Shown in pieces: positions 2,244 to 63,567 of a DNA stretch of 64,000 nt (position 1 is the stretch's first letter; every line of letters starts with the position of its first letter). The DNA comes from Amia ocellicauda. Lineage: Eukaryota > Chordata > Actinopteri > Amiiformes > Amiidae. Under the pieces are notes generated by a model. It made no database searches. It had not been told where the DNA came from and saw only the letters and a list, made by a program, of their open reading frames with translations. The stretch covers positions 49,618,318 through 49,682,317 of the forward strand of contig NC_089855.1 in NCBI RefSeq assembly GCF_036373705.1. Reading direction: 5' to 3'. The position numbers and the translations under genes were made by a program.

Positions 2244-2249
2244 CCTGTG
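2244..2249. repeat. Target-site duplication CCTGTG, left of E1
   Basis: CCTGTG directly precedes the terminal AGTAGATAG and is repeated at 18825-18830 after the right terminus. Six bases is the duplication length known for Maverick/Polinton integrases. The empty site with one CCTGTG is at 22335-22340. Confidence 0.9.
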
Positions 2250-2430
2250 AGTAGATAGTAGGGTTTTTTGGGCGCGGCCTATTTTGTTATGACGTATGCC
2301 CTAAGCTTATTAATATTCCTACGTCATAATTGGGGGGCGTGATTTTAGAGTTATTTCCTTAATTATTCCTACGTCATATCCGTCAGAAAGTGTACACCCC
2401 TAAAACCCTGAACAACAAGGCCACCCATAA
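2250..2430 (+). repeat. Left terminal inverted repeat of E1 (181 bp)
   Basis: The reverse complement is found at 18644-18824 without mismatch. It contains three CRE/ATF-like cores: TGACGTA at 2290-2296, and TACGTCA at 2320-2326 and 2370-2376. A 14-base string containing the last two is repeated 50 bp apart. A T6 run lies 14 bp in. Confidence 0.93.
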
Positions 2431-4176: not shown

Positions 4177-4188
4177 GGGACTTTGAAC

Positions 4189-4695
4189 ATGGGGAATGTT
4201 CTGGACTGCTGCTGCAACTGGTTCTGTCATCAACACTCTGCAGCTAACCTGAGAGCGCTATTACACCATGTGCTTGACAGAAAAGTAGCCAACGCGAGCC
4301 TTTTCTCTACAGATTTAACCATCGATGAGGATCAACTTTCAAACCTGGAAAAGTTAATGGTTGCTGTAACAAAGACCGGGGGGTACGAACACTGGGATGA
4401 AGCGCTCAAGGGGGCCAAGAATGATATTAGGCCATTTCATCAACATCTGTATGACCTTTTACTGAGCATGTTTAATACCCCTCTGTTTACTTTTAAAATA
4501 GGTCATATTGTTGTTTTATTTACATATGTAACTGAGGTGTGTGCCTACAAGATAAAGAAACAGGTATTTGTTGATATAGATCAAGTAACCAATCATCTGA
4601 TTTCTTTTTGTCTGGACCGTAGAAAAAATTGTTGTGTATGTTATACTTTTCTCAAATGTCTAAAAAGGGGTATCTGCTCTCCTGAAGTTGAATAA
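4189..4695 (+). CDS. Bcl-2-like protein (168 aa)
   Basis: Start taken at ATG 4189, giving an MGNVLDCCC N-terminus; the frame is open a little further upstream but only with non-ATG codons. Residues 100-120 (FTFKIGHIVVLFTYVTEVCA) fit the BH1 helix pattern of the Bcl-2 family: a Gly, then IV-x-LF, then VC. The rest is predicted mostly helical. BH2 is not clear and no C-terminal membrane anchor is visible. The Gly2 and Cys7-9 cluster could allow N-terminal acylation instead (inference). Bcl-2 homologues are known in adintoviruses and would act on mitochondrial apoptosis of the host cell. The stop codon overlaps an AATAAA (4691-4696). Identical in all copies. Confidence 0.6.
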   Translation: MGNVLDCCCNWFCHQHSAANLRALLHHVLDRKVANASLFSTDLTIDEDQLSNLEKLMVAVTKTGGYEHWDEALKGAKNDIRPFHQHLYDLLLSMFNTPLFTFKIGHIVVLFTYVTEVCAYKIKKQVFVDIDQVTNHLISFCLDRRKNCCVCYTFLKCLKRGICSPEVE

Positions 4696-4704
4696 AAAAC
4701 CTTG

Positions 4705-4712
4705 TATAAAAA
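4705..4712 (+). promoter_or_regulatory. TATA box before integrase
   Basis: TATAAAAA lies 47 bp upstream of the integrase ATG and just after the poly(A) signal of the Bcl-2-like gene. This suggests a transcript boundary here and a separate promoter for the integrase and capsid block. Confidence 0.55.
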
Positions 4713-4751
4713 CTTTGCGCATAGTGTGGGTCTGTGTGTTTATTTGGCAGA

Positions 4752-5843: not shown

Positions 5844-5847
5844 CAAC

Positions 5848-6645
5848 ATGCCCGCTGGTGTGATGGGGTCATTACTTTCGATACTCAAGATGGAATCAGG
5901 AGGCTTCTACGTGACTCTACCCAGTAACGCCTCTCTCGATATATACCCTAAAAATGAAATATCCAGTTACACGGTACAATTTGGAAAATCTATAGATCTA
6001 AGGGGGTCGTGGGAAGTGGGGTTGGCGGAAATACAGTATCCTTACACTTGGGCTGTTTTACAAGATAAGGATGCCACCTTCGCCATTTTTGACGATGTTA
6101 AAAAGAGTCAATGGACATTCACGATGCAAGGAGGTTATTATGACAATGTGGATACAATATTAGATGAGATGCATAAACAGTTCTCAGAAGGCACCCCCAA
6201 CATCAAGCTATATTACAACCCTATTAAAAACAGAGTGTACAAGGTGTCAAAACCTGGTATTAGCATTCAAACCAAAGGACAACTGGGGCGTATATTAGGG
6301 TTCTATTCTGACACAGAGAGCAGGTTCTCAGAAGTGGTGGCACCCTTCCCGGCTGACATCAGTGGCGGCTTTTACACTCTTTATGTGTATACGGATATCA
6401 TAACACACCAGAGGGTCGGGGATAGCTATGTCCCCCTTTTGAGAAATGTACTTATTAAAGGTAAAAGCAATGACATGGTCACAATTACTTATGACAAGCC
6501 ACACTACGTACCAGTCTCAAAGACCCACTTTGACAACATCACGATCGAAGTAAAATCGGATCAGAATATCAACGTACCCTTCCGCTTCGGTAAAGTTATT
6601 GTCAAACTACATTTTCGACCCCTGAAACAGTGTGTACATTATTAA
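5848..6645 (+). CDS. Penton-like minor capsid protein (265 aa)
   Basis: Single jelly-roll type vertex protein of the Maverick/adintovirus capsid. The region from MESGGFYVTLPSNASL onward, with the GSWEVGLAEIQYPYTW stretch, is the recognisable family signature; the remainder is beta-rich. The first ATG after the integrase stop is 5848. A downstream ATG at 5890 (MESGG) is an equally good start by family length. The reading frame is also open back into the integrase gene but without ATG. The stop is followed directly by the next gene. Confidence 0.85.
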   Translation: MPAGVMGSLLSILKMESGGFYVTLPSNASLDIYPKNEISSYTVQFGKSIDLRGSWEVGLAEIQYPYTWAVLQDKDATFAIFDDVKKSQWTFTMQGGYYDNVDTILDEMHKQFSEGTPNIKLYYNPIKNRVYKVSKPGISIQTKGQLGRILGFYSDTESRFSEVVAPFPADISGGFYTLYVYTDIITHQRVGDSYVPLLRNVLIKGKSNDMVTITYDKPHYVPVSKTHFDNITIEVKSDQNINVPFRFGKVIVKLHFRPLKQCVHY

Positions 6646-6646
6646 A

Positions 6647-7135
6647 ATGGCTACCTCGAGGGGTTATGTAGATCCTAGCGCCTATGTGGATTATTACAAG
6701 ATGCAAGCCGTGAACGGCTTGCCCGGTTTTGTAGGAGCCCCCACAATGTATGGAGCCGGTCTAGGAGGACTCTTTCGTGGTCTCTTTAGAATGGCCGTAC
6801 CCCTGCTTAAGAGAGGCTCTGCTATAGCCAGACCCCACTTGAAATCAGCGGCTAAAAATATTGTTAGTGACGTGTTCACCAATGTTATGAACCGGGCAGC
6901 TAGCCATGAGCAGCAGGAGGGTTCGGGTCTCATGGTAATGGCGAGGAGGGGGGGTAAAAGAAGAAACAGTATGTGTCCACCAGGGCGACGAAGATCCGTG
7001 GCTAACAAAAAACGAAGAAGCTCTCATTCTCCAACATATCGTGGAAACACTCGGAGAAGGAAGCAGCACAAGAAAAAACCTGCAAAAAGAAAGTCTCAAA
7101 GAAAGACAAATAGAGCCTCAGGATACATCTTTTAA
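6647..7135 (+). CDS. pVI/core-like minor virion protein (162 aa)
   Basis: Start at ATG 6647, right after the penton-like stop. The N-terminal half has a glycine-rich hydrophobic/amphipathic stretch (GLGGLFRGLFRMAVPLL, about residues 43-59), as in the membrane-active minor capsid protein of Mavericks and adenovirus pVI. The C-terminal half is very rich in Lys/Arg, like a DNA-condensing core protein. A role combining capsid-interior binding, membrane disruption and DNA contact is inferred from composition and position between penton and hexon. Missing altogether from E2. Confidence 0.7.
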   Translation: MATSRGYVDPSAYVDYYKMQAVNGLPGFVGAPTMYGAGLGGLFRGLFRMAVPLLKRGSAIARPHLKSAAKNIVSDVFTNVMNRAASHEQQEGSGLMVMARRGGKRRNSMCPPGRRRSVANKKRRSSHSPTYRGNTRRRKQHKKKPAKRKSQRKTNRASGYIF

Positions 7136-7137
7136 AA

Positions 7138-8445
7138 ATGTCTTTTGTCCACAGTCTATCGGAAGAATGCGTCAAATCAGAACTGGATCTGTTTACAGTT
7201 CCATACACTCAAACGAGTATAGATAAGAGCATATATGTAGAGATACCCCCTCTTTCCGCAATTTCAGATACGGCCCCTCTGGAGTTTTTTATTGCTGGCA
7301 ATGGCGAGGATTATATTGATTTGAATAACACATTTATTTTAATGAACTGTAAAGTGACTGATGAGGATGGCGATGCAATCGAGAAGACGGCCAACGCTGG
7401 GGTCATCAATTACCCGGTGGCCACCATGTTTTCACAGGTGGATGTGACCCTGGGAGATCGGCTCATTAGTCAAAGCAGCAATACTTACCCCTATAGGGCC
7501 ATGATGGAGTGTATCCTTAATTATAGTGAGGAGACCCTAAGCAAACAGTTCAGCCCCGGCCTTTTCTTCAAAGACACCCCGGAAGCTATGGACGACCAGG
7601 ATCCAGAGGGACTCAATAAGGGTTTGCAAAAAAGAACGGCCTTTTCAACAGAAGGGAGGACCTTTGAGCTAATGGGACATATTCATGCAGACATATTTTT
7701 CCAAGAAAAACTCATGCTCAACGGGGTAGACATTAAAATTAAAATGATCCGTAGTAAAAGTGCTTTTTGTCTGATGACCCCTGATACTGAAAAATATAAA
7801 CTGACCATATTATCGGCCTCGCTGTTTGTGAAAAAAGTATCCGTCTCCCCGGCGGTTAAACTAGGACATGCGCAGGCTTTAATGACGGCAAACGCCAAGT
7901 ACCCGATCGAAAGAGTCTATATGAAAGTCCACAGTATCCCCGCAGGGACACGGGTGATGAACCAGGAAAATCTGTTTCTAGGCCAGCTCCCAAAACAGGT
8001 TATTATAGGTCTCGTGGATAATGATGCATTTACCGGGGTTTACAACAAGAACCCCTTTAACTTTAAACATTATAACGCGGAATTTATAGCACTGTACGTC
8101 GATGGTGTGCAGGTTCCATCCAGACCTTTTCAACCTGACTTTGAAAACGGCAACGCGGTTCGTGAATATTACAGTCTAGTACTGGCTACGGGTCGCCATC
8201 TCAAGGATCAACCTCTGCTGATCGATCGCCGGGAATACTGCAGCGGTTACACCCTGTACGGTTTCAACCTGACCCCTGACGAAGAGTGTGGACAACATTT
8301 TTCACTGATGAAGACGGGCAATATGCGTTTGGAGATGCGTTTCAAGCAGCCTCTACCACGCACTGTAAATATGGTCGTGTATGCTGTGTTTGACAACATT
8401 ATTGAGGTGAATCAGAGGAGAAACGTTCTGTATGATTATTATTAA
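7138..8445 (+). CDS. Hexon-like double jelly-roll major capsid protein (435 aa)
   Basis: Main shell protein. It starts 3 bp after the core-like gene stop and ends overlapping the possible upstream start of the protease. Length and order (integrase, penton-like, core-like, hexon-like, protease) match adintovirus-type Mavericks. Recognisable stretches are the N-terminal LFTVPYTQTSIDKS, the FSQVDVTLGDRLI strand near residue 98, and the C-terminal YYSLVLATGRH region. No signal peptide, as expected for an intracellular capsid. Identical to the E3 protein; E2 retains only the part from about residue 98. Confidence 0.88.
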   Translation: MSFVHSLSEECVKSELDLFTVPYTQTSIDKSIYVEIPPLSAISDTAPLEFFIAGNGEDYIDLNNTFILMNCKVTDEDGDAIEKTANAGVINYPVATMFSQVDVTLGDRLISQSSNTYPYRAMMECILNYSEETLSKQFSPGLFFKDTPEAMDDQDPEGLNKGLQKRTAFSTEGRTFELMGHIHADIFFQEKLMLNGVDIKIKMIRSKSAFCLMTPDTEKYKLTILSASLFVKKVSVSPAVKLGHAQALMTANAKYPIERVYMKVHSIPAGTRVMNQENLFLGQLPKQVIIGLVDNDAFTGVYNKNPFNFKHYNAEFIALYVDGVQVPSRPFQPDFENGNAVREYYSLVLATGRHLKDQPLLIDRREYCSGYTLYGFNLTPDEECGQHFSLMKTGNMRLEMRFKQPLPRTVNMVVYAVFDNIIEVNQRRNVLYDYY

Positions 8446-8446
8446 A

Positions 8447-9004
8447 ATGAACACCAGAGAGCTCAACCACATCATGAATGCCCTGGACGGCTCACGGAAA
8501 GTGTTTCAAGGAGTCTACGCCTGCGACCAGCTGCCTAAATTTAAGATCAAGAATTTACCTGCAATGTACATAATCAACACACACCCTAAAAATATGCCCG
8601 GAGAACATTGGCTGGCTATTTATCTAAGGGAGGACCGCCGTGGGGAATTTTTTGATTCCTATGGAAACCCCCCGGATTTCAGACCTTTCCCTCGGAAGAT
8701 CAATAACTTTCTGCTCAACAACTGTCAAGAAACCATTTACAGCGGTCGTCAAGTACAAAGTCTTCAGACCTTCACTTGTGGTCAACACTGTGTGTTTTTC
8801 TTATATCATAGATCTAAAGGAAGGTCATACCCCGATATTATGTCCTTGTACAGTGAGGATTTAGGCCAAAATGATAAAAAAGTGGCAGAGTTTGTCAGGA
8901 CACTGTGGACCCCCCCTTATAACACAATTACTTACGACCCTAGCCAGCCATGTATACAGATGGGGTGTTCTTGTGAGGATTTTAAAAGATGTCATGCGTG
9001 TTAA
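8447..9004 (+). CDS. Adenain-like cysteine protease (185 aa)
   Basis: Maturation protease (C5 family type) that would cut capsid precursors. Start set at ATG 8447 (MNTRELNHI); an ATG 15 bp upstream inside the capsid gene is possible. Catalytic residues visible: H54 in GEHWLAIYL, D70 in EFFDSYG, Q107 and C115 in the CGQHC motif, close to the numbering and spacing of adenovirus protease. The Cys-rich C-terminus (GCSCEDFKRCHAC) is unusual and may bind metal or form disulfides. Identical in all three copies. Confidence 0.92.
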   Translation: MNTRELNHIMNALDGSRKVFQGVYACDQLPKFKIKNLPAMYIINTHPKNMPGEHWLAIYLREDRRGEFFDSYGNPPDFRPFPRKINNFLLNNCQETIYSGRQVQSLQTFTCGQHCVFFLYHRSKGRSYPDIMSLYSEDLGQNDKKVAEFVRTLWTPPYNTITYDPSQPCIQMGCSCEDFKRCHAC

Positions 9005-9182
9005 AGTGAAAAAATAATGAAAACAGCCTTTGAATCATTAGTTTTGTTTTTATTCAACACAAATCTTATACAAAGCAGGGTTATGTTATAAATAAATGTA
9101 CAACATTTGAAAATAAAAATAAAAAATAAAAAAATTGTTTGTCGGTTCCTTATTTACAGGGGAGACAAATAAAAACATGAGA
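9005..9182. terminator. Convergent 3' ends with overlapping poly(A) signals
   Basis: AT-rich gap between the plus-strand protease stop and the minus-strand 247-aa frame end. Plus-strand AATAAA occurs at 9091-9096 among others; minus-strand AATAAA (TTTATT on the plus strand) occurs at 9049-9054. The two transcript groups would overlap tail to tail. The same gap is at 35267-35444 and 55304-55481. Confidence 0.6.
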
Positions 9183-9926
9183 TTAATAAGCTTCCCAACG
9201 ATGGATAGATCCTGAGGAGGGTTGCTCAACACGGTCAGAGTAATGAGATATCGGCGTCAGATCAGTCACCACCTCTTTACACAGACGGATTTTTTGTCAC
9301 GTTTCCTGGTTAGGGACTGTTGATTGGGGCATGTTCAGACAGGCCATCGCCTGTAGGAAAGCATTCCAGCCTACAGGTCGGCGACTATCGGGTACCTTAT
9401 TAGTGCTAGTGACACTCTTCAACAAATCAAACATGTGTGAACCTTTGATCAGTTGTCCTTTAAAAACAAATTCACCCTGTTCATTCCAAGTCGTTACCCG
9501 CGGTTTCTGAACCATTTTGTGCAGAATATATTCTGCATGTCTTTTGCTTCTGGCCGGCATGTTTCTCAAAACATCCGTTACAACATCTCCCTCTGAACTC
9601 TCAACAGGTTCGGGCACCGCAACATCTTTATCAACCGTACCCCCCGCATCAGTCCCAGAACCATTTTCTTGAGAGGCCATGGTTAAAGTTAAAATGTTTT
9701 GATCTTTTTCACCCTGTCTAACCAGACGGAGGTAGCACTGTAACGTGTTGCTATACATCTGGGCTTTGGAATACTGATTTAAATCGGCCCTGGCCAGTAT
9801 AGCTTTCATTTCAGAGTCCAGGTTGTTTTCGGCCGTTTGTCTAATGGGCTCTGGCCCGACAACATTTTTTCTCAGTTTCTCAAGCTGCTCCTGAGGGATC
9901 AAAAACATTTTCTGAGCATATTCCAT
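9183..9926 (-). pseudogene. 247-aa conserved Maverick protein, truncated by nonsense in E1
   Basis: In E2 and E3 this frame codes 247 aa. Here CGA has become TGA (9297-9299), a C-to-T change at a CpG, leaving 209 aa and removing the last 38 codons, which stay open to 9183. Two other changes are specific to this copy: an R-to-C in LQRYLR and an M-to-T in IRQMAEN. The folded-looking part (N-terminal helices and the region around GQLIKGSHMFDLL) lies before the stop, so residual function cannot be excluded. Confidence 0.75.
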
Positions 9927-9928
9927 TA

Positions 9929-10264
9929 TTAACCCACTCTGGAAGCTAGAAGACTGGTTAGGAAAGGCACGGCTATGCTCAACAGCGGTCCTATAAAACC
10001 TCCGGTTTGATTAATCTTCTTTCTTTTTCTTTTAATAGAATACTTCTTATTAGCGATGATCTTGATAACCGCTTTTTGTTTTTTGAGTTTAGAATGTTGA
10101 GAAGGGGTTAGGGGTATATTACCGCGTAAGATGTTAAAAGCTATTTCACACAGGGTCTCGATCAAATCCGAGGGGGCCCCTGCCAGCACAGCTTTCCTAT
10201 GGCGCGGGCTCCCCTCAAATAACATTTGCAAAAGCGGCAGATTTCTTTTAATCCGAACAGACAT
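9929..10264 (-). CDS. 111-aa basic protein with hydrophobic tail
   Basis: Small conserved Maverick-type protein, 2 bp upstream of the 247-aa gene on the minus strand. The N-terminal half is helical and includes the GAPSDLIETLCEIA stretch. Next comes a Lys/Arg-rich block (about residues 68-84, KKYSIKRKRKK) and a C-terminal glycine/hydrophobic segment (GGFIGPLLSIAVPFLTSLLA) that could be membrane-active or amphipathic. A minor virion/core role is inferred from composition; no function is proven by the sequence. Confidence 0.7.
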   Translation of the reverse strand: MSVRIKRNLPLLQMLFEGSPRHRKAVLAGAPSDLIETLCEIAFNILRGNIPLTPSQHSKLKKQKAVIKIIANKKYSIKRKRKKINQTGGFIGPLLSIAVPFLTSLLASRVG

Positions 10265-10270
10265 TCTTAT

Positions 10271-10942
10271 TTATTTCCTTTTCTTTAGCACATACACTGC
10301 CGGCCAATCGGGCGGGCACAAACCTGTTCTGAGGCGAAAGTCTTCTGGGGTTTGTGCTTTTAAGTCCACAATCAAGTACCCGTAGGGTTTTTTGGTGGCA
10401 TCCTCAAATGCCTCCAAAAAGAATTTGGTCTGGTTAGGGTACATTTGACGAGCCAAGACGGTGACCTGTAGTTTATCTCTGGGGTTTTTAAAAAGAATTA
10501 TATAATTGGCATTTAAATTAATAGTGCGGCTTTTTTTACCTTGAAAAAATAGATTTTGAACTAAATAAATAATACTTAAATTCCTATGATGAGTGTACTT
10601 TGTGAAAGCTTTTTCCACTTCACTGTTGTCACCGGCCTGCTCCATCAGGTCATCAAGGATCACTAGATTAGTTTGTCCGGGCGGGAACAGGTCATCGTCA
10701 CACAACGAGGCGGGGAGACCTTGCACAAATTTCAGATTATTTTTTTTTGATGCCAAATCATCGTAGAGAGGTTGCCAGCAAGAGTAACACCACACTATGT
10801 TGTCAAGAGCTTGGGACACGGTTGCGTCCACATCTTCTATGATGTTCTTTATAAGATAGCTCTTACCCGAATTGGAGGGACCGGCTATAATACAGGAGAA
10901 AGGGTGTTGAAGTCTGTTATCAAAACCACTGCTAATATCCAT
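10271..10942 (-). CDS. A32/FtsK-type DNA packaging ATPase (223 aa)
   Basis: Genome-packaging motor ATPase. Walker A GPSNSGKS at residues 21-28; Walker B LVILDD at 93-98; LVQN at 127-130 fits the sensor motif after the third strand. The length is usual for Maverick ATPases. The start overlaps the polymerase 3' end by 11 bp, so both are probably on overlapping minus-strand transcripts. All key residues are present in this copy. Confidence 0.92.
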   Translation of the reverse strand: MDISSGFDNRLQHPFSCIIAGPSNSGKSYLIKNIIEDVDATVSQALDNIVWCYSCWQPLYDDLASKKNNLKFVQGLPASLCDDDLFPPGQTNLVILDDLMEQAGDNSEVEKAFTKYTHHRNLSIIYLVQNLFFQGKKSRTINLNANYIILFKNPRDKLQVTVLARQMYPNQTKFFLEAFEDATKKPYGYLIVDLKAQTPEDFRLRTGLCPPDWPAVYVLKKRK

Positions 10943-13900
10943 AAGGCAGAGTGGTATAATCAGTCTTCAACACTCTTTTATTGTACACCACCCTGAACCG
11001 TTTGTTTAGTGATCTATTTTCCAATGTGTACCCCTTTTTATTGTGATAGATCTGATTTCCGGCTGTAATAATCTCGCGAGGAGGCGCGTCTTTCTCGGTT
11101 ACAAAACTTTGTACCAGGGTCGTCAGAGACTTGATGTTAATGAGCTTGTTGTTACAATGGTTCAGAGTGAAACCCTTAACTTTCATACAGGTCTTACCCG
11201 CAGCCGTTCTGTATGCGTAAGTCTTAGGACCCCCTGAAACAAACTCCACTATGTGGTCCTGAGGATCTAGCTCGCTCGTTAACTCCCCAAGGTAGTCCCC
11301 GAGGGGAGGGACCCAATCCCCTGGCCTGGTGACAAAGATTACAGAGTCAGTATCATGATAGAGCGTGCGTTCCTGCAGCTGATCCATTAAGTTGTACAGT
11401 TCAAGCCGGGCGTAAGCCGTGGTAAAAACCGCTATGAAAACATTAACGTTTCCCTGTTTGGTGGGGAAATCTTTAGGGGCCCTCCACTGGACCTGTGCCA
11501 CGTGGTCATTTAAGAATTGAAAGTGTGATACTGCATGTTGTTTGGAAAAGATAAATTCTATAAACTGTTCAGGGGTTTTAATCAAGGTTGTGTTTAGACG
11601 GTTATTTCTTTCCCCAAACTTACCCCACAGACTGTTTAAAATCAGTTTGGACATTTGTCTCTTGGCGGGGTTTACAGTTATGTTCCCCGGCTCTAGACGG
11701 ATCCCTTCCTTTTCAAAATATTGCTGAACGTACCGCTCTTTGGCAGCGGAGTCAACACACCATGAGGGATAGCCCGATGCCTCCTGTTTCCCTATCAGAT
11801 GGGTCATAATGTACTCAGCAAAAAGAGTATCAGATTTTTCAGAAAAATGCCAAACCTCATACACCTTACCGACTCTGTAACCTTTCTCCACCGCCTTGTC
11901 AAGCTCAATGCTACACCAGACACCCGTCAGCGCTCTCTCGTCATCACTGTGCAGACAAGAGGTATTTTGATTTTCAGTTTCCACACACGTTCTACACAGA
12001 GGGAACATCAATTTTCCCGAACACCTGTAAGGCAACACGGGTAGGAACAGCTCACGAGGAGGGTACATGGTGACTTTGATCAAACCAAAGTACTGTCCGA
12101 TTTCGAGAAAGTCACGATAAACAATGGTTGGATGCCCCACCGGGTACATTTTGGTCTTGTTGACATAAGGGTACAGACTGGTGAAATCATAGTAATCTAC
12201 TCTCTCACCCTCCTTTACCTCATAATGTAAACAGAGGGCGTTGGTACGACCCCCAAATAACGCATCCCTGGGCTCTAGACGTTCAGGAAAGTCCAAGGTT
12301 TCCATAAACCGTTGTACCCCCACATCCTGTTGCTTCAGGGTCGTCCACGCGTGTTCCCAAATCACCAGTACATTCAAACCATAGGTGTTTTTTAAAGTTT
12401 CAATTCGTTCCTGGAAATCATAGTACATATCACCGCAGAGTTTTTGTGTTACGGGGTTAAAGGTGTTTGGGTCGAAGCACTGAGGACAGCCATGGTAAAT
12501 ACAACCAGCAAACTCATAAGCGGTACGCCGCCCGGACACGTCGCTAAAACCGTCTAAGTAGTAAGGACCCATTTTGACTTCCCCTTGATTTAAAGCATGT
12601 CTGATGAAGATGTTATCCCGGGCACTCAGATATTCCAGCCACTGTATGGAGACAGTCGAAAAGTTCTTTTGTCTAGCACGATAGTTGTCAGAAGTGGTGT
12701 CCGCTATAGTGTTTTTCTGCAAGAAATTGGATCGATACATTTTCATGCAGAGAGACGCTATGGTCACACTTTGCAAAGGGTCGAGACCCGACGTGTTGAT
12801 AACCTCGGTGCGGAAACGCAAACAGGCTTCTTTAAGGATCACCACATCATTTTTACAATAAGCGGCCATCTCTTCTCGGAAATCAAAAACACCCCCCTTA
12901 ACCGTATTGTACCATTTAAAGAATTCCTCCCTCTCATGAGACATCATAGTATCAACCCCATAATAAGAGGCGGGCGGGTAGGACCCTCGATAATTTTGAG
13001 TGTCCTTAGTATTAAAAAAATGGCAGAACCAACCTTTCTTCTGAGCCTCAAAACCCAGAGCTTTAGGCAAAGCGCTCAATTTCATGGGGAGGAAATTTAA
13101 CGAGTCTATGTAACGTTGGTTGAAAGCCTCGTCGGTGAAACACATGATCTTGCTACCCTGAGCTATTATTTTTGGGGTCACCCCATTTTCCACCAGATAC
13201 TTCATCAATATGTAAGAATCATAACCCTTAGCATTGTGGGCAATAAATGTGTAATTGAGGTATTTTGGACCGCGATACCGCGTAAAGAAATCCCTGACAC
13301 AACTCTCACCGCTAGCTGACCACTCACAATCCAACATGTCAATACAGTGTATATAATTAGCAACATGGACCCCGTTTTCTTGCCGGCATTCAAAATCAAA
13401 AAAGACATACCGGTTGTGCGGCGGCTCCTTTTTAACCGGCTGAATAAAGCACTGGTGTTCAGACCCCGGGGTTAAATCCGCATTACAGATCCTACATCTC
13501 GGTTCCAGACATTTGTGTGGTTTAACCTCATGAAAACGGTACTGGAGGCAACACTGCGGGCAATATTTAGTTTGATCACAATAACTCCGTTTTTTAACCC
13601 CCTCAGCAGCGGCCCTCTGCACCTTATGTTCGGAAAAACAGAACGCGGAGAGACAAATCCTTAAGCAATCTTTACATCGGATGGTAGGGGCCAAACCCTT
13701 ACGACATTGCGGATTGAAACAGACGTTACAGTAACCGTCACAGCGGTGCTTAAGCTTATCATTGAAGGCCTTATAACACCAATGACAAACATACGAACAA
13801 CCCAAAAAAGCCGTCAAACTCTTTATTCCAAAGTAATGACTATCACTTAGGAAGAGAAACAGTGTCTGTGTATGGGTTTCAGGATGTGTCTGAAATTTCA

Positions 13901-14948
13901 CAAATACTTCCTTTACCTCACAACGGTACCACACAACAATTTTTAAAGACAACAACTCCTCAAACATGGCAATGTCTGAAAAGGCAACCATCTGTTGAGA
14001 GTTTAAGCCGGCCCTCTGATGAAGCATTAAAGCCTCTTGCATAGCTTGGGGTTCAGGCATGTCGGGGGTGAGTAGTTTTATTAAACTGTAAGCAAAACAG
14101 AGCTTATTGTCCCCATTGGAACTCACCACTAATTGCCTGAGCTTGTTCCTAATTATGTCGTTCTTCAAGCATTTCGACAGTCTTCTAAGCGCCCCACCCT
14201 CAGGGTTAGGAACCACATTCATTACCAGAGACAGACTTTCATCAGCTAAGATGGATGCGTTACTTTGCAATAACGCTTCGATTTTAGCCAGAAATTCATC
14301 AACATCTAAATTATCTCCACTCAGCATTACAGATAGGTTGCTAAACAAATCATCCCCTCTGAGTTCTAACTGTACAACATCTCGAGGTCTGACCCTTTCA
14401 GCAACCTGTTCAAGCATGTTTTGCAAGGCCTCGTGTATGTTGACAAATATTTCTGCATAATTGTCACAATTTAAAAGTTCTGCAAAATTAAAACGCTGAA
14501 TCATTTCAAAATTGTTATAGGCCGGTCTATCTATAATCACGGGATCACTGGTACTTTTGGACACATCATCATTTTGAACAAAGCCTTCAACCCCTACATT
14601 CTCACAGAGCATGTCATCCACAGCCTTATCAGTCTCAGAACCCTCCACATTCCGAACACCCCCACCGCTGACATCTACAAAACCCCCTTTTTGAGGAGGC
14701 TCATTTAAAGCCTGTAAAAGTCCTTCAAAGATATCCACCCGGTTAATGTCAAGACCCTCCTCTATAGTGACGGCTGCTTCTGCCGCCGTACTGTGTTCTA
14801 ATTGTCTCAAATCATTTATAATAGGGGCAGAATTTGGTCGGGGTAGCGTCTCCAAAGCCTCCACCATTTCAAACAAATCGGGGTGAACTAGGGGTTGAAC
14901 CTCTATAAGCGCTACCGTTGGGAGGTGGTTATTTAGATCATTGACCAT
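10932..14948 (-). CDS. Protein-primed family B DNA polymerase with N-terminal OTU-like and Zn-rich regions
   Basis: The frame is open from 14969 but begins there with GTG; the first ATG is at 14948 (codon 8), used here. Numbering below counts from 14969. Residues 285-390 look like the OTU-like domain of Maverick polymerases (C291 in KLCFAYSLIKLL, H378 in SDSHYFGI). Residues 391-507 are a Cys/His-rich zinc-binding region. Exonuclease motifs: FDFE (524-527), HNAKGYD (578-584), YCKND (704-708). An AYEFAGCIYHGCPQC...WEHAW segment lies at 817-874. Polymerase motifs: DFTSLYP (928-934), KLILNSLWGK (1108-1117), YHDTDS (1204-1209), then GPKTY. It would replicate the linear element from its ends. K1059 is I in this copy only. 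Confidence 0.92.
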   Translation of the reverse strand: MVNDLNNHLPTVALIEVQPLVHPDLFEMVEALETLPRPNSAPIINDLRQLEHSTAAEAAVTIEEGLDINRVDIFEGLLQALNEPPQKGGFVDVSGGGVRNVEGSETDKAVDDMLCENVGVEGFVQNDDVSKSTSDPVIIDRPAYNNFEMIQRFNFAELLNCDNYAEIFVNIHEALQNMLEQVAERVRPRDVVQLELRGDDLFSNLSVMLSGDNLDVDEFLAKIEALLQSNASILADESLSLVMNVVPNPEGGALRRLSKCLKNDIIRNKLRQLVVSSNGDNKLCFAYSLIKLLTPDMPEPQAMQEALMLHQRAGLNSQQMVAFSDIAMFEELLSLKIVVWYRCEVKEVFVKFQTHPETHTQTLFLFLSDSHYFGIKSLTAFLGCSYVCHWCYKAFNDKLKHRCDGYCNVCFNPQCRKGLAPTIRCKDCLRICLSAFCFSEHKVQRAAAEGVKKRSYCDQTKYCPQCCLQYRFHEVKPHKCLEPRCRICNADLTPGSEHQCFIQPVKKEPPHNRYVFFDFECRQENGVHVANYIHCIDMLDCEWSASGESCVRDFFTRYRGPKYLNYTFIAHNAKGYDSYILMKYLVENGVTPKIIAQGSKIMCFTDEAFNQRYIDSLNFLPMKLSALPKALGFEAQKKGWFCHFFNTKDTQNYRGSYPPASYYGVDTMMSHEREEFFKWYNTVKGGVFDFREEMAAYCKNDVVILKEACLRFRTEVINTSGLDPLQSVTIASLCMKMYRSNFLQKNTIADTTSDNYRARQKNFSTVSIQWLEYLSARDNIFIRHALNQGEVKMGPYYLDGFSDVSGRRTAYEFAGCIYHGCPQCFDPNTFNPVTQKLCGDMYYDFQERIETLKNTYGLNVLVIWEHAWTTLKQQDVGVQRFMETLDFPERLEPRDALFGGRTNALCLHYEVKEGERVDYYDFTSLYPYVNKTKMYPVGHPTIVYRDFLEIGQYFGLIKVTMYPPRELFLPVLPYRCSGKLMFPLCRTCVETENQNTSCLHSDDERALTGVWCSIELDKAVEKGYRVGKVYEVWHFSEKSDTLFAEYIMTHLIGKQEASGYPSWCVDSAAKERYVQQYFEKEGIRLEPGNITVNPAKRQMSKLILNSLWGKFGERNNRLNTTLIKTPEQFIEFIFSKQHAVSHFQFLNDHVAQVQWRAPKDFPTKQGNVNVFIAVFTTAYARLELYNLMDQLQERTLYHDTDSVIFVTRPGDWVPPLGDYLGELTSELDPQDHIVEFVSGGPKTYAYRTAAGKTCMKVKGFTLNHCNNKLINIKSLTTLVQSFVTEKDAPPREIITAGNQIYHNKKGYTLENRSLNKRFRVVYNKRVLKTDYTTLPYGY

Positions 14949-14965
14949 CTGTAACAGGTCGGGGT

Positions 14966-15169
14966 TCACGGTAAGTCTGGTAATTCACATTCTATCGGTG
15001 GTGATTGGGGGTTATTTAAATCATTTATCATTTGTAATAGTTCCTGGTTCATTGGGACATCAGAGGAGTTCACAACAGGGCCGAGGGTGTTCTCTCGGGA
15101 AGGTCTTTTTGGGGCCCTAACTTGTTCATAATCCTTTAGTTTGTGAGTTCTTTTACCAAGTCCGGACAT
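14966..15169 (-). CDS. 67-aa ORF directly upstream of polymerase
   Basis: ATG-initiated frame with a basic N-terminus (KRTHKLKDYEQVRAPKRP) whose stop codon overlaps the first codon of the open polymerase frame (GTGA). Its end carries MNQELLQMINDLNN, nearly repeated as NPDLLQMVNDLNN at the start of the polymerase frame. It may be a 5' part of the polymerase reached by splicing, frameshifting or reinitiation, or a small separate protein. Conserved in all three copies (one D-to-Y change in E2). A start shared with the spliced gene (ATGTCCGGA) is notable. Confidence 0.5.
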   Translation of the reverse strand: MSGLGKRTHKLKDYEQVRAPKRPSRENTLGPVVNSSDVPMNQELLQMINDLNNPQSPPIECELPDLP

Positions 15170-15173
15170 TTTT

Positions 15174-15186
15174 TTTATTTTTTATT
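15174..15186 (-). terminator. Poly(A) signals of the spliced gene
   Basis: Two AATAAA signals on the minus strand (15174-15179 and 15181-15186), about 50 nt after the stop of the six-exon gene and just before the ATG of the 67-aa ORF. The transcript probably ends here. Confidence 0.5.
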
Positions 15187-15232
15187 TTTCCAACAACCCA
15201 CAATAGTAAGGCGTTTTGTATCTATTAAAACA

Positions 15233-17268
15233 TTAAATACGGTACAATTCGTTAGTAAGGGTATTAATAAGGGTGTTTTGGCTCTCTATCACAAGGTTTT
15301 GCCCCACTAACACAAGTCTTTGATTTAGTAACAAGGTATGTAGCAACTCATGCCGACCTTCAGGAAGTAGCTCCGGGGGATGGTGTCCTGGCTCAGCTGC
15401 AAAGGATGGTCGCTCCGGTAAATCTCGGTCGAAGGAGGCAGGGAGCGAGCGTATACTCACGGACGGAGACCAAGAAGGCCTTTGCGGTGACACCCTGGCC
15501 AATCGCGGTGTACTGTTCAGCGTTTCTGTAGCCAAGAAACGGGGCTGGGGGGACGATGTTGAAACCAGTCCGTCGTTGGGTGGTGTGTCAACCCTGACTG
15601 ACGGCGACCCCTGAGGTTGTTGGTTGCCTGTATTTGTTCCGCCCGACAATGCGGCGGGCTGAATCTGGATTGTTGAATTACCCCCAGAAGGCTGTGGCCT
15701 GAGTAGATGTTGGGGGGTCTCCAAGACCACCGTGGGGGATCCTCTCGGTGATCTCTCCGGGGAAGATGTTTGATCCCACTTAGACGGGGTAATTGTCCTC
15801 AATAGCTCATCCACAGAATGACTATCCCAAGAGTCTTGGGAAGAATAAAAATATACATTACATTTACATCTTTAAACGGCGACAGAAATCAAACTTAAAA
15901 CAGCATGTCCAGGAACTTCAAAACCTTTAGCTTTTTTAGACCTTTGAAAATAGGCTTAGACATTCACTACAACGCCTTATTATTTACAGACAATATATTT
16001 ATTAGGACTTGATAATAAATGTAAAACAGAGAAGCCTCTGTAAATAAACTGTTTCTTAAATGTAATATTGTTAATAAAACACTTTTTATACACACACACA
16101 CCACATTTCATTTTTAAACGAACCTTCCAAGTGTAAACGCTTCCTGATCCCGGGACTTCCTGTTTCACAAACGTTTTCACGATCTGTTTAAATATTAAAT
16201 ACAATGAACACCTTCAAGCCTTTTCCTACAGCCACTTTAAAACAGAAGTATAATTGCGGGAGATAAGCCAAACAACTTACTAAAACCTTTCGGACAGCTT
16301 TACTTCCTAACCAGATGGTCGGGCAATCGGTCATTTCTAAACACATGCCCCAGAAACAAGCCTAGACCTGTCCGGACTTCTAAAGATCTTTCCCAGAACC
16401 CCCAAGACCTACAGGAAATGGGCACCCCTCGCTTAAATATTAGCCCTCAACGGGCAAACAAAACCCTTTTAAAAACATTAAAGTTTGAAAGATCTTACTT
16501 ACCTCCAAAGAATAATCGTTTCTTATGTTTTTCAGCTGGTTTAGCTTTTTGCACTTCTGTGAAGGTAAGAGACATGTTTAACCTTTAACCACCCCGCTTT
16601 ATAAAAAGCTTTAACCTCTTACAAGCGGCAGATATATACTCACCGCTATCAGATACAGGGGCTGACGGCCTTTCAGATTCTTGAAAGGTTACGGTTCTCG
16701 AAGGTAAAACTAAACAAGCCCTCGATGTGGAAGGCCTTTCGTTGTCTCGAACCACGTTTCTTAATACTGTTAGAAAGGATATTTTTTTAAATTAACAAAA
16801 CGGGCCTCAAACATCTTACAGAAACGTTATACAAACAAACAGGGGTTTAGTTCTTACCCGGTCGGCAGACAGCCTGTCTAGGGACAACCACTTCTCTTGG
16901 TTGATCCTCGGAGACATTAATCACAGGCCTTTCGATAGTTTCTGTGTAATTAAAGAGACCGCCATTAATATATATTAAAACGTTTTCATAACTCTAATGA
17001 GCCGCTTCAAAACACAACCACACACCCATACATAAGAACCCTTGAGCGCAAACACAAAAATCTTACCGTCGTTGTTCCAGATGATCTCCTCAGCATTGGG
17101 AATTAACTCCTGTTGACTGGCTGAAAAATAATTTTACAGAACTTAAAACAGATGTTATAACCTTATTTACAATACATGCCCACAACCCGCTCTGGGTCAA
17201 TGAAAATAATCTGAAGACTTACCTAAAAACTCGTTTAAATCAAAGTCGTTGATGTTGTTTCCGGACAT
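15233..17268 (-). CDS. Six-exon spliced gene (about 320 aa), function unknown
   Basis: Read from splice sites. Exons on the minus strand: 17223-17268 (ATG at 17268), 17067-17120, 16858-16941, 16644-16766, 16503-16556, 15233-15834. Every intron starts GTAAG or GTGAG and ends AG after a pyrimidine-rich tract. All five introns are phase 1 (sizes 102, 125, 91, 87 and 668 nt) and the joined frame is open to the stop at 15233. The last exon has no ATG of its own. The product is low-complexity and Ser/Pro-rich with repeated ERP/PER motifs, a basic KHKKRL patch in exon 5 (possible nuclear signal), an acidic Asn/Asp N-terminus, and a C-terminal helical LLHTLLLNQRLVLVGQNLV stretch suitable for oligomerisation. 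The place upstream of the polymerase resembles the adenovirus E2 unit. No terminal-protein similarity is seen; a regulatory or replication-accessory role is inference. Confidence 0.72.
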
Positions 17269-17296
17269 TGTTGATCTTTAGGCTTAAATCGAAAGG

Positions 17297-17345
17297 TCAG
17301 TATGAGTCTGTCGAGCTGAAGACCAGACCTTCATACTTATACTGA
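17297..17345 (-). promoter_or_regulatory. Palindromic core promoter of the spliced gene
   Basis: TATAAGTA on the minus strand (17334-17341) lies about 66 nt upstream of the exon-1 ATG. It is inside one arm of an inverted repeat: TCAGTATGAG (17297-17306) against CTTATACTGA (17336-17345), 9 of 10 pairing, with an inner GTCTG/CAGAC pair. The loop would cover the expected start site. The same sequence is at 43527-43575 and 63596-63644. Confidence 0.55.
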
Positions 17346-18643
17346 TGGCCGGATGCCGGATCTGCTTGTAAGGCATTGTTCTGGGCTGGCCTTTGTGCCG
17401 TCCTGTTACCAATTAACATATCAAAACCAACCAATAAAATGACCCTGCATCAATTTCAAATAGAAACCAAGATGGCGACGATCTCTCTCCTCTCTACTCT
17501 AAACTTTTATTAGAACCTTTTGGTCTCTCAAAAAAACATTTTTAAGCATCAAGACCTATAGTCAATAAACACTAAGAATATTTCAGGCCTTTATACGCGC
17601 TAAAAAACAACCTGAGCCAAGAAAATAACTATAAAGATCTAAAATAAGTAGCGCTTTTACAGTGATTTTTTTTTTTTTTTTAATAGCGATGCTTTCTTTG
17701 GTATTAAACAAGTCACAAACTACTCAGAACAGCGTTTATCCCCACAAAAGAGATATTTGGGTTTATTTTACAAAGCTTATAAATTATATAGTTTAAAAGT
17801 ATTCTGAATGTTTTGAGACCACACGCCATGCCTACGTTTGTCTGAGCCCACCCCCGTCCCCCGTGGTGTGAGTGATTTAGCCTTGAGTGTTGTGATCTAT
17901 TTAGCATTGAGTGATCAGTTGTTTTTATTTTTTAAATGATTCCTTATCATCAGGGATTGAGCCTGCTAAAATACCTTAAAAACATATCCTTATCTTAAGT
18001 CTAACTCTTATGAGCTTTAAGACCCTAGAATGTATTTAAGTAAAACGAATGAACACATTATGTGTGAGATAAAATATAACCATAGCTTTTTTTTTTTTTT
18101 TTTTTTTTTTACAAAAACAATTAACCTATACCGACAAACACCCACACACACACACACTCTCTTTTTTTAAATTTTATTTTTAATTAAATTTGAGGGGAGA
18201 GACAGAGCCATATACATTGGGGTTAACATAAGTACCCTATGCAAAACAGGAATTGTTAGGACCTGTGACCATTACAGACAACAGAACTTGTTGATCTTAT
18301 AAAATGATTGGGCGAGAGAGAGAGATATAGAGACAGACAGAGACAGAGCCAGTGTGAATATGATAAACGCACTATTCAAAATGGCATTGTTAAGACCTGG
18401 GACCATTACAGACAACAGAACTTGTTGATCTTATAAAATGCTTGGGCGAGAGAGACAGAGAGAGAGAGACAGACAGAGACAGAGACAGAGACAGTGTGAA
18501 TATGATAAACGCACTATTCAAAATGGCATTGTTAAGACCTGGGCCCCTTACATGTATATTTAAAAAAGACCCCCAACCACTACAGGAAGAGCCGACCCAT
18601 TCACACTCTACAGTTGACCAACAAGAACAACAAGAACAACCGG
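17346..18643. other. Right-arm non-coding region of E1
   Basis: 1.3 kb between the spliced-gene promoter and the right inverted repeat. It holds AT-rich sequence, T-runs at about 17667-17681 and 18087-18110, a CA run at 18142-18158, and the tandem repeat at 18252-18527. Short open frames here are low complexity and not believable genes. It could hold enhancer or packaging elements, but none is recognised. Confidence 0.55.
18252..18527 (+). repeat. Tandem duplication (134- and 142-bp units) with GA-rich core
   Basis: Units start at 18252 and 18386, and a third partial unit begins at 18528. Each has a conserved part (ACCATTACAGACAACAGAAC, then CTTATAAAATG) and a GAGACA-type simple repeat that varies in length. 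E2 has the same at 44480-44767 with a longer first unit. Confidence 0.75.
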
Positions 18644-18824
18644 TTATGGGTGGCCTTGTTGTTCAGGGTTTTAGGGGTGTACACTTTCTGACGGATATGA
18701 CGTAGGAATAATTAAGGAAATAACTCTAAAATCACGCCCCCCAATTATGACGTAGGAATATTAATAAGCTTAGGGCATACGTCATAACAAAATAGGCCGC
18801 GCCCAAAAAACCCTACTATCTACT
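18644..18824 (-). repeat. Right terminal inverted repeat of E1 (181 bp)
   Basis: Exact reverse complement of 2250-2430, ending CTATCTACT. It carries the same three CRE-like cores. Confidence 0.93.
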
Positions 18825-18830
18825 CCTGTG
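18825..18830. repeat. Target-site duplication CCTGTG, right of E1
   Basis: Matches 2244-2249. It continues into TGGTGCATTTTC exactly as the unoccupied units at 22335 and 25857 do. Confidence 0.9.
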
Positions 18831-41462: not shown

Positions 41463-43498
41463 TTAAATACGGTACAATTCGTTAGTAAGGGTATTAATAA
41501 GGGTGTTTTGGCTCTCTATCACAAGGTTTTGCCCCACTAACACAAGTCTTTGATTTAGTAACAAGGTATGTAGCAACTCATGCCGACCTTCAGGAAGTAG
41601 CTCCGGGGGATGGTGTCCTGGCTCAGCTGCAAAGGATGGTCGCTCCGGTAAATCTCGGTCGAAGGAGGCAGGGAGCGAGCGTATACTCACGGACGGAGAC
41701 CAAGAAGGCCTTTGCGGTGACACCCTGGCCAATCGCGGTGTACTGTTCAGCGTTTCTGTAGCCAAGAAACGGGGCTGGGGGGACGATGTTGAAACCAGTC
41801 CGTCGTTGGGTGGTGTGTCAACCCTGACTGACGGCGACCCCTGAGGTTGTTGGTTGCCTGTATTTGTTCCGCCCGACAATGCGGCGGGCTGAATCTGGAT
41901 TGTTGAATTACCCCCAGAAGGCTGTGGCCTGAGTAGATGTTGGGGGGTCTCCAAGACCACCGTGGGGGATCCTCTCAGTGATCTCTCCGGGGAAGATGTT
42001 TGATCCCACTTAGACGGGGTAATTGTCCTCAATAGCTCATCCACAGAATGACTATCCCAAGAGTCTTGGGAAGAATAAAAATATACATTACATTTACATC
42101 TTTAAACGGCGACAGAAATCAAACTTAAAACAACATGCCCAGGACCTTCAAAACCTTTAGCTTTTTTAGACCTTTGAAAATAGGCTTAGACATTCACTAC
42201 AACGCCTTATTATTTACAGACAATATATTTATTAGGACTTGATAATAAATGTAAAACAGAGAAGCCTCTGTAAATAAACTGTTTCTTAAATGTAATATTG
42301 TTAATAAAACACTTTTTATACACACACACACCACATTTCATTTTTAAACGAACCTTCCAAGTGTAAACGCTTCCTGATCCCGGGACTTCCTGTTTCACAA
42401 ACGTTTTCACGATCTGTTTAAATATTAAATACAATGAACACCTTCAAGCCTTTTCCTACAGCCACTTTAAAACAGAAGTATAATTGCGGGAGATAAGCCA
42501 AACAACTTACTAAAACCTTTCGGACAGCTTTACTTCCTAACCAGACGGTCGGGCAATCGGTCATTTCTAAACACATGCCCCAGAAACAAGCCTAGACCTG
42601 TCCGGACTTCTAAAGATCTTTCCCAGAACCCCCAAGACCTACAGGAAATGGGCACCCCTCGCTTAAATATTAGCCCTCAACGGGCAAACAAAACCCTTTT
42701 AAAAACATTAAAGTTTGAAAGATCTTACTTACCTCCAAAGAATAATCGTTTCTTATGTTTTTCAGCTGGTTTAGCTTTTTGCACTTCTGTGAAGGTAAGA
42801 GACATGTTTAACCTTTAACCACCCCGCTTTATAAAAAGCTTTAACCTCTTACAAGCGGCAGATATATACTCACCGCTATCAGATACAGGGGCTGACGGCC
42901 TTTCAGATTCTTGAAAGGTTACGGTTCTCGAAGGTAAAACTAAACAAGCCCTCGATGTGGAAGGCCTTTCGTTGTCTCGAACCACGTTTCTTAATACTGT
43001 TAGAAAGGATATTTTTTAAAATTAACAAAACGGGCCTCAAACATTTTACAGAAACGTTATACAAACAAACAGGGGTTTAGTTCTTACCCGGTCGGCAGAC
43101 AGCCTGTCTAGGGACAACCACTTCTCTTGGTTGATCCTCGGAGACATTAATCACAGGCCTTTCGATAGTTTCTGTGTAATTAAAGAGACCGCCATTAATA
43201 TATATTAAAACGTTTTCATAACTCTAATGAGCCGCTTCAAAACACAACCACACACCCATACATAAGAACCCTTGAGCGCAAACACAAAAATCTTACCGTC
43301 GTTGTTCCAGATGATCTCCTCAGCGTTGGGAATTAACTCCTGTTGACTGGCTGAAAAATAATTTTACAGAACTTAAAACAGATGTTATAACCTTATTTAC
43401 AATACATGCCCACAACCCGCTCTGAGTCAATGAAAATAATCTGAAGACTTACCTAAAAACTCGTTTAAATCGAAGTCGTTGATGTTGTTTCCGGACAT
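41463..43498 (-). CDS. Six-exon spliced gene (about 320 aa), function unknown
   Basis: Exons on the minus strand: 43453-43498, 43297-43350, 43088-43171, 42874-42996, 42733-42786, 41463-42064. All splice sites and the phase-1 pattern seen in E1 are kept; one P-to-L change is in the last exon and a silent change in exon 1. Confidence 0.72.
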
Positions 43499-61531: not shown

Positions 61532-63567
61532 TTAAATACGGTACAATTCGTTAGTAAGGGTATTAATAAGGGTGTTTTGGCTCTCTATCACAAGGTTTTG
61601 CCCCACTAACACAAGTCTTTGATTTAGTAACAAGGTATGTAGCAACTCATGCCGACCTTCAGGAAGTAGCTCCGGGGGATGGTGTCCTGGCTCAGCTGCA
61701 AAGGATGGTCGCTCCGGTAAATCTCGGTCGAAGGAGGCAGGGAGCGAGCGTATACTCACGGACGGAGACCAAGAAGGCCTTTGCGGTGACACCCTGGCCA
61801 ATCGCGGTGTACTGTTCAGCGTTTCTGTAGCCAAGAAACGGGGCTGGGGGGACGATGTTGAAACCAGTCCGTCGTTGGGTGGTGTGTCAACCCTGACTGA
61901 CGGCGACCCCTGAGGTTGTTGGTTGCCTGTATTTGTTCCGCCCGACAATGCGGCGGGCTGAATCTGGATTGTTGAATTACCCCCAGAAGGCTGTGGCCTG
62001 AGTAGATGTTGGGGGGTCTCCAAGACCACCGTGGGGGATCCTCTCGGTGATCTCTCCGGGGAAGATGTTTGATCCCACTTAGACGGGGTAATTGTCCTCA
62101 ATAGCTCATCCACAGAATGACTATCCCAAGAGTCTTGGGAAGAATAAAAATATACATTACATTTACATCTTTAAACGGCGACAGAAATCAAACTTAAAAC
62201 AACATGTCCAGGACCTTCAAAACCTTTAGCTTTTTTAGACCTTTGAAAATAGGCTTAGACATTCACTACAACGCCTTATTATTTACAGACAATATATTTA
62301 TTAGGACTTGATAATAAATGTAAAACAGAGAAGCCTCTGTAAATAAACTGTTTCTTAAATGTAATATTGTTAATAAAACACTTTTTATACACACACACAC
62401 CACATTTCATTTTTAAACGAACCTTCCAAGTGTAAACGCTTCCTGATCCCGGGACTTCCTGTTTCACAAACGTTTTCACGATCTGTTTAAATATTAAATA
62501 CAATGAACACCTTCAAGCCTTTTCCTACAGCCACTTTAAAACAGAAGTATAATTGCGGGAGATAAGCCAAACAACTTACTAAAACCTTTCGGACAGCTTT
62601 ACTTCCTAACCAGACGGTCGGGCAATCGGTCATTTCTAAACACATGCCCCAGAAACAAGCCTAGACCTGTCCGGACTTCTAAAGATCTTTCCCAGAACCC
62701 CCAAGACCTACAGGAAATGGGCACCCCTCGCTTAAATATTAGCCCTCAACGGGCAAACAAAACCCTTTTAAAAACATTAAAGTTTGAAAGATCTTACTTA
62801 CCTCCAAAGAATAATCGTTTCTTATGTTTTTCAGCTGGTTTAGCTTTTTGCACTTCTGTGAAGGTAAGAGACATGTTTAACCTTTAACCACCCCGCTTTA
62901 TAAAAAGCTTTAACCTCTTACAAGCGGCAGATATATACTCACCGCTATCAGATACAGGGGCTGACGGCCTTTCAGATTCTTGAAAGGTTACGGTTCTCGA
63001 AGGTAAAACTAAACAAGCCCTCGCTGTGGAAGGCCTTTCGTTGTCTCGAACCACGTTTCTTAATACTGTTAGAAAGGATATTTTTTTAAATTAACAAGAC
63101 GGGCCTCAAACATCTTACAGAAACGTTATACAAACAAACAGGGGTTTAGTTCTTACCCGGTCGGCAGACAGCCTGTCTAGGGACAACCACTTCTCTTGGT
63201 TGATCCTCGGAGACATTAATCACAGGCCTTTCGATAGTTTCTGTGTAATTAAAGAGACCGCCATTAATATATATTAAAACGTTTTCATAACTCTAATGAG
63301 CCGCTTCAAAACACAACCACACACCCATACATAAGAACCCTTGAGCGCAAACACAAAAATCTTACCGTCGTTGTTCCAGATGATCTCCTCAGCGTTGGGA
63401 ATTAACTCCTGTTGACTGGCTGAAAAATAATTTTACAGAACCTAAAACAGATGTTATAACCTTATTTACAATACATGCCCACAACCCGCTCTGAGTCAAT
63501 GAAAATAATCTGAAGACTTACCTAAAAACTCGTTTAAATCGAAGTCGTTGATGTTGTTTCCGGACAT
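61532..63567 (-). CDS. Six-exon spliced gene (about 320 aa), function unknown
   Basis: Exons on the minus strand: 63522-63567, 63366-63419, 63157-63240, 62943-63065, 62802-62855, 61532-62133. Splice sites are intact and all introns are phase 1. One Ser-to-Ala change is in exon 4. Confidence 0.72.

Follow-up and report, generated by a model that had tools for sequence, protein, structure and literature searches.

A probable seven-exon accessory gene with uniform phase-1 introns in a Maverick/Polinton element of the bowfin

Introduction

According to the accessible portions of Barreat and Katzourakis (2021, PMC8097293), intact vertebrate Mavericks carry eight conserved intronless ORFs with flanking accessory regions, and these regions hold diverse proteins of unclear role. 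Here, we describe an element found in a stretch of 64,000 nucleotides of the bowfin (Amia ocellicauda) genome, referred to as the window. Compared with the vertebrate Mavericks/Polintons in those portions of PMC8097293, it has the same type of inverted repeats, 6-bp target duplication and AGT-like end, gene modules on opposite strands that face the centre, a matching size of 16.6 kb and an accessory region beside the terminal repeat. It differs in that the ORFs reported there are intronless, whereas the bowfin element has an accessory gene that appears to be divided into seven exons.

Adenovirus E1A is the type of a spliced early regulator at the genome end of a nuclear DNA virus, and such regulators are mostly disordered and carry short linear motifs. 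The bowfin gene is likewise near-terminal, with predicted splicing and a predicted, mostly disordered product that contains short linear motifs, whereas it differs in having no detected sequence similarity to E1A-type regulators, no LxCxE motif and seven exons of uniform phase. A second parallel is provided by basic NLS-RXL modules, which bind cyclin A in herpesvirus kinases and host cell-cycle proteins according to the accessible text of PMC7518283. In the beta-herpesvirus kinases and host modules covered there, as in the bowfin protein, a basic stretch runs into R-x-L and a hydrophobic residue; unlike those kinases, the bowfin protein has no kinase domain, and its docking motif is putative.

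We found no vertebrate Maverick described as having a spliced accessory gene, either in the accessible parts of PMC8097293, PMC10328495, PMC9683012, PMC11071296, PMC6431247, PMC5718144 and PMC4028283 or in a wider literature search; this scope excludes the first Maverick and Polinton papers (2006-2007) and the one on adintoviruses, and we make no claim of priority. The words Maverick and Polinton are absent from the text of the bowfin genome paper (PMC8423624) in its accessible form.

Results and Discussion

The host element and its copies

The host element bears the marks of a vertebrate Maverick/Polinton. Its inverted repeats (Table 1) are 182 nt long and 100% complementary, and the 6-bp target duplication CCTGTG flanks the first two elements in the window, while the third runs off its end. 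Repeat units without the element carry CCTGTG once. The element ends in AGTAGA, one base off AGTAGT, which is the most frequent 6-bp end motif of vertebrate Mavericks in the accessible part of PMC8097293. Pfam matches include an integrase (rve, 1.3e-12) with a Chromo domain (1.7e-08), an adenovirus-type protease (Peptidase_C5, 3.5e-05) and a family B polymerase (DNA_pol_B_2, 5.2e-45), and a 231-aa P-loop-like ORF matched Pox_A32 below the cut-off (4.4e-4). ORFs of capsid size stand in the expected order, but matched no capsid family of Pfam or PHROG. The predicted spliced gene is located in the accessory region on the right; it is transcribed inward and precedes the polymerase gene, which has the same orientation.

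Table 1. Coordinates of the element, the predicted gene and its signals in the window
Feature	Position	Strand	Remarks
Left terminal inverted repeat	2249..2430	+	element proper 2250-18824
Right terminal inverted repeat	18644..18825	-	
TATA-like box TATAAG	17336..17341	-	upstream of start codon
Exon 1	17223..17268	-	46 nt; ATG at 17268; phase 1 at end
Exon 2	17067..17120	-	54 nt; phase 1-1
Exon 3	16858..16941	-	84 nt; phase 1-1
Exon 4	16644..16766	-	123 nt; phase 1-1
Exon 5	16503..16556	-	54 nt; phase 1-1; first basic RxL-like motif
Exon 6	16124..16183	-	60 nt; phase 1-1; donor GTTCGT; second basic RxL-like motif
Exon 7	15233..15834	-	602 nt including stop; proline/serine-rich part and C-terminal helix
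AATAAA polyadenylation-signal-like hexamer	15181..15186	-	3' of stop
Second gene copy	41463..43498	-	exon 6 equivalent at 42354-42413
Third gene copy	61532..63567	-	exon 6 equivalent at 62423-62482

The window contains three copies of the element (2249-18825, 29389-45065 and 48540-64000), each at the same site of a tandem repeat of roughly 3.5 kb that carries tRNA-Gln and tRNA-Glu genes. The first two lie 33 nt past tRNA-Glu (weakly scored in the first), and the third has the same flank. As 29 of the 40 matches listed in the genome fall within 1.2 Mb of the window's own contig (C6, 49.48-50.64 Mb), one insertion seems to have been amplified along with the tRNA array. The three gene copies in the window occupy the same place in this array and seemingly spread together, and are thus not independent support for the gene; dispersed copies are a better test. 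Several gene matches each were found on contigs C11-C17, C25, C42, C55, C78 and C372, many of the matches being on small contigs, which suggests further arrays of the element. That so many dispersed copies are nearly identical suggests that the element family was active recently.

Several other features of these copies were observed. In copy 1, the polymerase open frame (10932-14984, minus strand) starts without an ATG, and the same frame starts at 41214 and 61283 in the other copies. It is preceded, in another frame, by a 67-aa frame with an ATG (14966-15169, minus strand) that has a similar repeated motif; this may reflect a frame break or a splice. In the second element copy, two frames of the capsid region are fused and the polymerase frame is split; its predicted spliced gene keeps the structure of copy 1. 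A 295-aa accessory ORF on the plus strand (30441-31328 and 49588-50475) is present as two frames in copy 1 (3300-4176) and has one distant, unnamed relative in the protein database, with 35% identity over 68%. Another accessory ORF of 172 aa (4177-4695, plus strand) begins with a cysteine-rich stretch and, by impression only, looks helical and Bcl-2-like; it has no Pfam match above the cut-off. Two stretches that are similar by eye lie beside CT-rich repeats at 18230-18540, in the interval that separates the right inverted repeat from the gene; these are perhaps promoter-proximal repeats.

A frame-keeping chain of six predicted introns

A first-pass annotation, made from the letters of the window, had proposed a six-exon gene on the minus strand with five introns of uniform phase 1. 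We reproduced the lengths of its exons (exons 1 to 5 and the last exon in Table 1). Its five donors were recovered as GTAAGT, GTAAGA, GTAAGA, GTGAGT and GTAAGT, all acceptors are AG, and recomputation returned open exons and phase 1 for each of these introns. The statement that the frame at 15233-15814 has no ATG also holds, as the frame of the whole last exon contains no in-frame ATG. The TATA box is present as a TATA-like sequence and ends 67 nt before the ATG rather than 66. The exon count needed revision: a 60-nt exon had been overlooked within the supposed last intron of 668 nt, giving seven exons. This additional exon 6 lies between AAACAG and the weak donor GTTCGT in all three gene copies of the window. 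The two further copies, also predicted earlier, have an identical exon structure.

The chain was evaluated by searching the gene for the best frame-keeping series of introns, using vertebrate splice-site weights. The best chain of five introns consisted of exactly the sites proposed before, with a score of 86.0, whereas the best of 10,000 dinucleotide shuffles reached 77.0, so the earlier judgement that the junctions were unlikely to arise by chance stands (0 of 10,000 shuffles equalled the chain). The best chain of six introns, from the same search with no outside guidance, added exactly exon 6 and scored 95.4, a value reached by none of the 10,000 shuffles (best 88.9). An earlier run of 300 shuffles had the same outcome. 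In this scoring the donor of exon 6 is weak at 5.1, against 8.6-11.6 for the remaining donors, and acceptor 2 is weak as well (rank 16 of 109).

Partial models of other copies

A protein database search with exon 7 gave two matches among 415 candidates, both of them NCBI models of Amia ocellicauda: LOC136721633 (P0001) and LOC136717369 (P0002). The names of these uncharacterized proteins have no link to Maverick. An ORF scan would miss the gene, as the first-pass annotation stated, but it is already partly modelled by NCBI without its Maverick context. The two models are predictions from other copies of the same gene. In both, twenty residues between what had been taken as neighbouring exons 5 and 6 map to window positions 16183-16124, and a tblastn search with the two models found exons 4 to 7 joined identically (4/5, 5/6 and 6/7) in P0001, P0002 and the window copy. 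The models differ from the window gene in their 5' parts: exons 1 to 3 are absent from both, P0001 begins in intron 3, and P0002 begins in another upstream exon. In the copy from which P0002 was predicted, exon 3 is interrupted by a stop, which may account for the different start of this model. Junctions 1/2, 2/3 and 3/4 are predicted from the nucleotide sequence only.

Matches to both models are spread over many contigs of the bowfin genome, the best being on C49 for P0001 and on C27 for P0002. For P0001, 133 matches were scored of 2188 candidates, with an internal stop in 1 of the 133; for P0002, there were 131 from 2255 candidates, and 28 of the 131 have an internal stop. Beyond the bowfin, the search space yielded no relatives: an alignment of the two models, run against the protein database with E up to 1, retrieved only these two bowfin models among the best 7991 scored, and IMG/VR contained no relative of exon 7 or of a 443-aa putative capsid ORF.

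Conservation across dispersed copies

As no relatives were found outside the bowfin, the conservation test is limited to one genome. We fetched 92 gene-sized stretches and set aside eight (L001-L008) whose exon 7 is identical to that of the window. The alignment consists of 73 rows, namely the window copy and 72 of the remaining 84 loci, with identities to the window copy down to about 86%. Twelve loci with N runs, missing parts or deletions were omitted (L045, L049, L065, L066, L069, L070, L071, L073, L074, L078, L085 and L089); this removes damaged copies and somewhat favours the model. Several rows come from arrays.

Indels are concentrated in the introns. Over the 73 rows, which are not independent, there were 19 distinct kinds of indel in 1023 exon nt against 80 in 1013 intron nt (binomial p 2e-10), the intron count being inflated by indels within repeat tracts. 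Of the kinds common to at least two rows, which again are not independent, 4 lie in exons and 36 in introns (binomial p 9e-8).

The splice sites are largely kept. GC is a known minor donor type, and donor 1 is GT in 63 and GC in 10 of the 73 rows. Donors 2, 3, 5 and 6 are GT in 70, 72, 67 and 73 rows, respectively, and donor 4 is GT in 72 and GC in one. The acceptors of exons 2 to 7 are AG in 70, 73, 72, 73, 72 and 73 rows. Donor 5 is the least conserved; five of the six rows that lack it belong to one array on contig C1. In 49 of the 73 rows the complete seven-exon model carries no damage; the other 24 have some. The TATA-like box is kept in all 43 rows that cover it whole, and AATAAA occurs within 68 nt past the stop in 66 of the 73.

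Among the 28 most diverged rows (L055 onward), exon 6 has the smallest mean divergence from the window (0.027), followed by exon 4 (0.034). Exons 1 (0.071), 5 (0.084) and 7 (0.059) fall within the range of the introns, 0.052-0.088, in which intron 5 stands at 0.0875 and intron 6 at 0.058. These values bear on the possibility that the main product lacks exon 6, in which case the chief mRNA would have six exons, and exon 6 would be a cassette exon or belong to a minor form. The weakness of its donor would fit such skipping, and forms with and without the exon both keep the frame because all introns are in phase 1. We nevertheless regard this as unlikely, given that exon 6 diverges least of all exons and introns, has not a single indel in 73 rows and is contained in both NCBI models.

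A shorter gene, as NCBI predicts for one copy, would start at an ATG in intron 3 and comprise exons 4 to 7 only. This is the start of model P0001, and in 55 of the 73 rows the ATG, 49 nt ahead of exon 4, is open into that exon. In the window copy, however, its frame holds a stop. Across the 58 rows with the ATG, the segment has 14 replacement changes, 2 silent changes and 1 stop, at 0.354 changes per nt, compared with 0.382 for introns and 0.317 for exon 4 over the 73 rows. Because the segment evolves like an intron, the start within it is likely, though not proved, to be a prediction artefact. A gene of this length would also leave the conserved splice sites of exons 1 to 3 unexplained, and we consider it improbable.

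We also looked for spliced retrocopies in the bowfin genome. Probes for junctions 6/7, 4/5 and 1/2 with at most 3 mismatches detected none. L085, in which exon 4 lies near exon 7, was considered as an intron-loss copy and rejected, as its gap runs from the interior of intron 4 to the interior of intron 6 and is a plain deletion. The gap in L089 extends from inside exon 2 to inside intron 6.

Coding constraint

Changes present in at least two rows show a silent excess in the predicted frame (54 of 153, p 0.0051), with no excess in either shifted frame. A single change present in at least three rows creates a stop in the predicted frame, compared with 9 and 13 such changes when the frame is shifted; 11.1 would be expected in the predicted frame at intron rates, or about 7.5 when scaled to the changes seen. 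The constraint on the predicted frame appears to be carried mostly by exon 7, which alone has silent-excess p values of 0.0038, 0.025 and 0.074 at three cut-offs. The corresponding values for exons 1-6 are 0.2, 0.057 and 0.16. In the 73 rows, exons 1-3, 4-6 and 1-6 had no significant silent excess (best p 0.057), and exons 4-6 had no excess at all when all changes were counted. An earlier set of 47 rows gave an excess for all changes (p 0.0035) that was absent for changes in at least 2 rows (p 0.16) and at least 5 rows (p 0.67). As codon statistics are weak in exons 1-6, the case that these are coding leans mainly on the indels, the splice sites and the chain test.

The frame of exon 7 has no ATG and still carries most of the coding signal, as would be seen if there were no splicing and exon 7 were a decayed gene fragment behind a coincidental upstream chain. 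The shuffle test, the conservation of splice sites and the distribution of indels over the copies, and the NCBI models all speak against this, and make it extremely improbable. The alignments document the predicted exon-intron anatomy and its conservation over dispersed copies of one genome. The earlier proposal of a multi-exon, phase-1 gene in a Maverick-type element is upheld on sequence evidence in all but its exon count: the accessory gene of this bowfin Maverick very probably has seven exons and six phase-1 introns.

The predicted protein and a possibly duplicated exon

AlphaFold2 predicts disorder and one C-terminal helix for both P0001 and P0002, with a mean pLDDT of 41.5. The helix of P0001 spans residues 254-294, with 10-residue pLDDT means of 59-79. 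P0001 and the frame of exon 7 have no Pfam or PHROG match, and P0002 has one, below the cut-off. Exon 7 encodes 11 S/T-P pairs, compared with a shuffle mean of 5.4 (p 0.0066).

Of the seven exons, only 5 and 6 encode [RK]xL plus a hydrophobic residue, each of them once and at the exon end. In both it is an R-x-L-hydrophobic stretch adjoining basic residues, a motif of the cyclin-docking type, and the basic x-R-L is kept in 71 of 73 rows for exon 5 and in 69 of 73 for exon 6. The last 22 nt of these two exons are identical at 15 positions. Of the 12,403 pairs formed by 22-mers that precede a GT anywhere in the gene, one other pair equals this value; it overlaps itself in a GT repeat, and the pair from exons 5 and 6 is the best that does not overlap. 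Global alignment of the 15 exon pairs gave a strong result for 5/6 (0 of 500 shuffles) and a weak one for 1/5 (p 0.034). This suggests that the predicted exons 5 and 6 are duplicates of a symmetric exon, and such a duplication would partly explain the uniform phase. LxCxE, the Rb-binding motif of E1A-like oncoproteins, was absent from the seven exon peptides, P0001 and P0002, in a scan of codons not split by introns.

Given the spliced seven-exon gene, we lean somewhat towards a nuclear regulatory role for the predicted protein. Docking to cyclin-CDK specifically can be proposed only tentatively and is rather doubtful. From the motifs and the analogy with NLS-RXL modules, we infer that the product could be a nuclear adaptor tied to the cell cycle.

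Proposed mode of action and origin

Taken as a whole, the locus is probably a spliceosome-dependent accessory gene of seven exons in a bowfin Maverick/Polinton, with a putative nuclear regulator as its product. Transcription by host RNA polymerase II would take place in the nucleus, driven by the TATA-like promoter, the seven exons would be joined by splicing, and the mRNA would end at the AATAAA ahead of the polymerase gene. The product, of about 340 residues, would be mostly disordered, nuclear and able to oligomerise through its C-terminal helix of about 40 residues. Its two basic RxL-like motifs (exons 5 and 6) may bind host cell-cycle factors, and exon 7 would offer many S/T-P phosphorylation sites. 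Expression or replication of the element would thereby be tied to the state of the host cell.

Because all internal exons are symmetric, leaving one out, most readily exon 6 given its weak donor, would keep the frame and produce isoforms that have one or two putative docking sites. This leads to a more speculative proposal, which we consider unlikely in its entirety: the gene may encode a modular regulator built by duplication of a phase-1 exon for nuclear import and cyclin docking, in which exon skipping switches the element between dormancy in the host chromosome and replication when cells are cycling, and it may be one of a class of spliced Maverick genes missed by ORF-based surveys.

The introns raise the question of origin. 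Host genomic DNA with its introns may have been taken up and then used, or merely carried, by the element, which would be compatible with the seven-exon gene rather than an exclusive alternative to it. Introns are usual in host genes, while the accessible portions of PMC8097293 describe core genes that lack introns in intact vertebrate Mavericks. As the protein database contains no similar protein besides the two bowfin models, we regard capture of a host gene as unlikely.

The accessory gene that we favour, spliced and conserved, would have to be transcribed in the nucleus and would depend on the host spliceosome. The bowfin genome has many closely similar copies on many contigs, so ordinary RNA data could address their expression and splicing. 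The interest of the locus lies in spliced genes in vertebrate Mavericks: since intact elements have been described by intronless frames, other Maverick accessory genes may be overlooked likewise.
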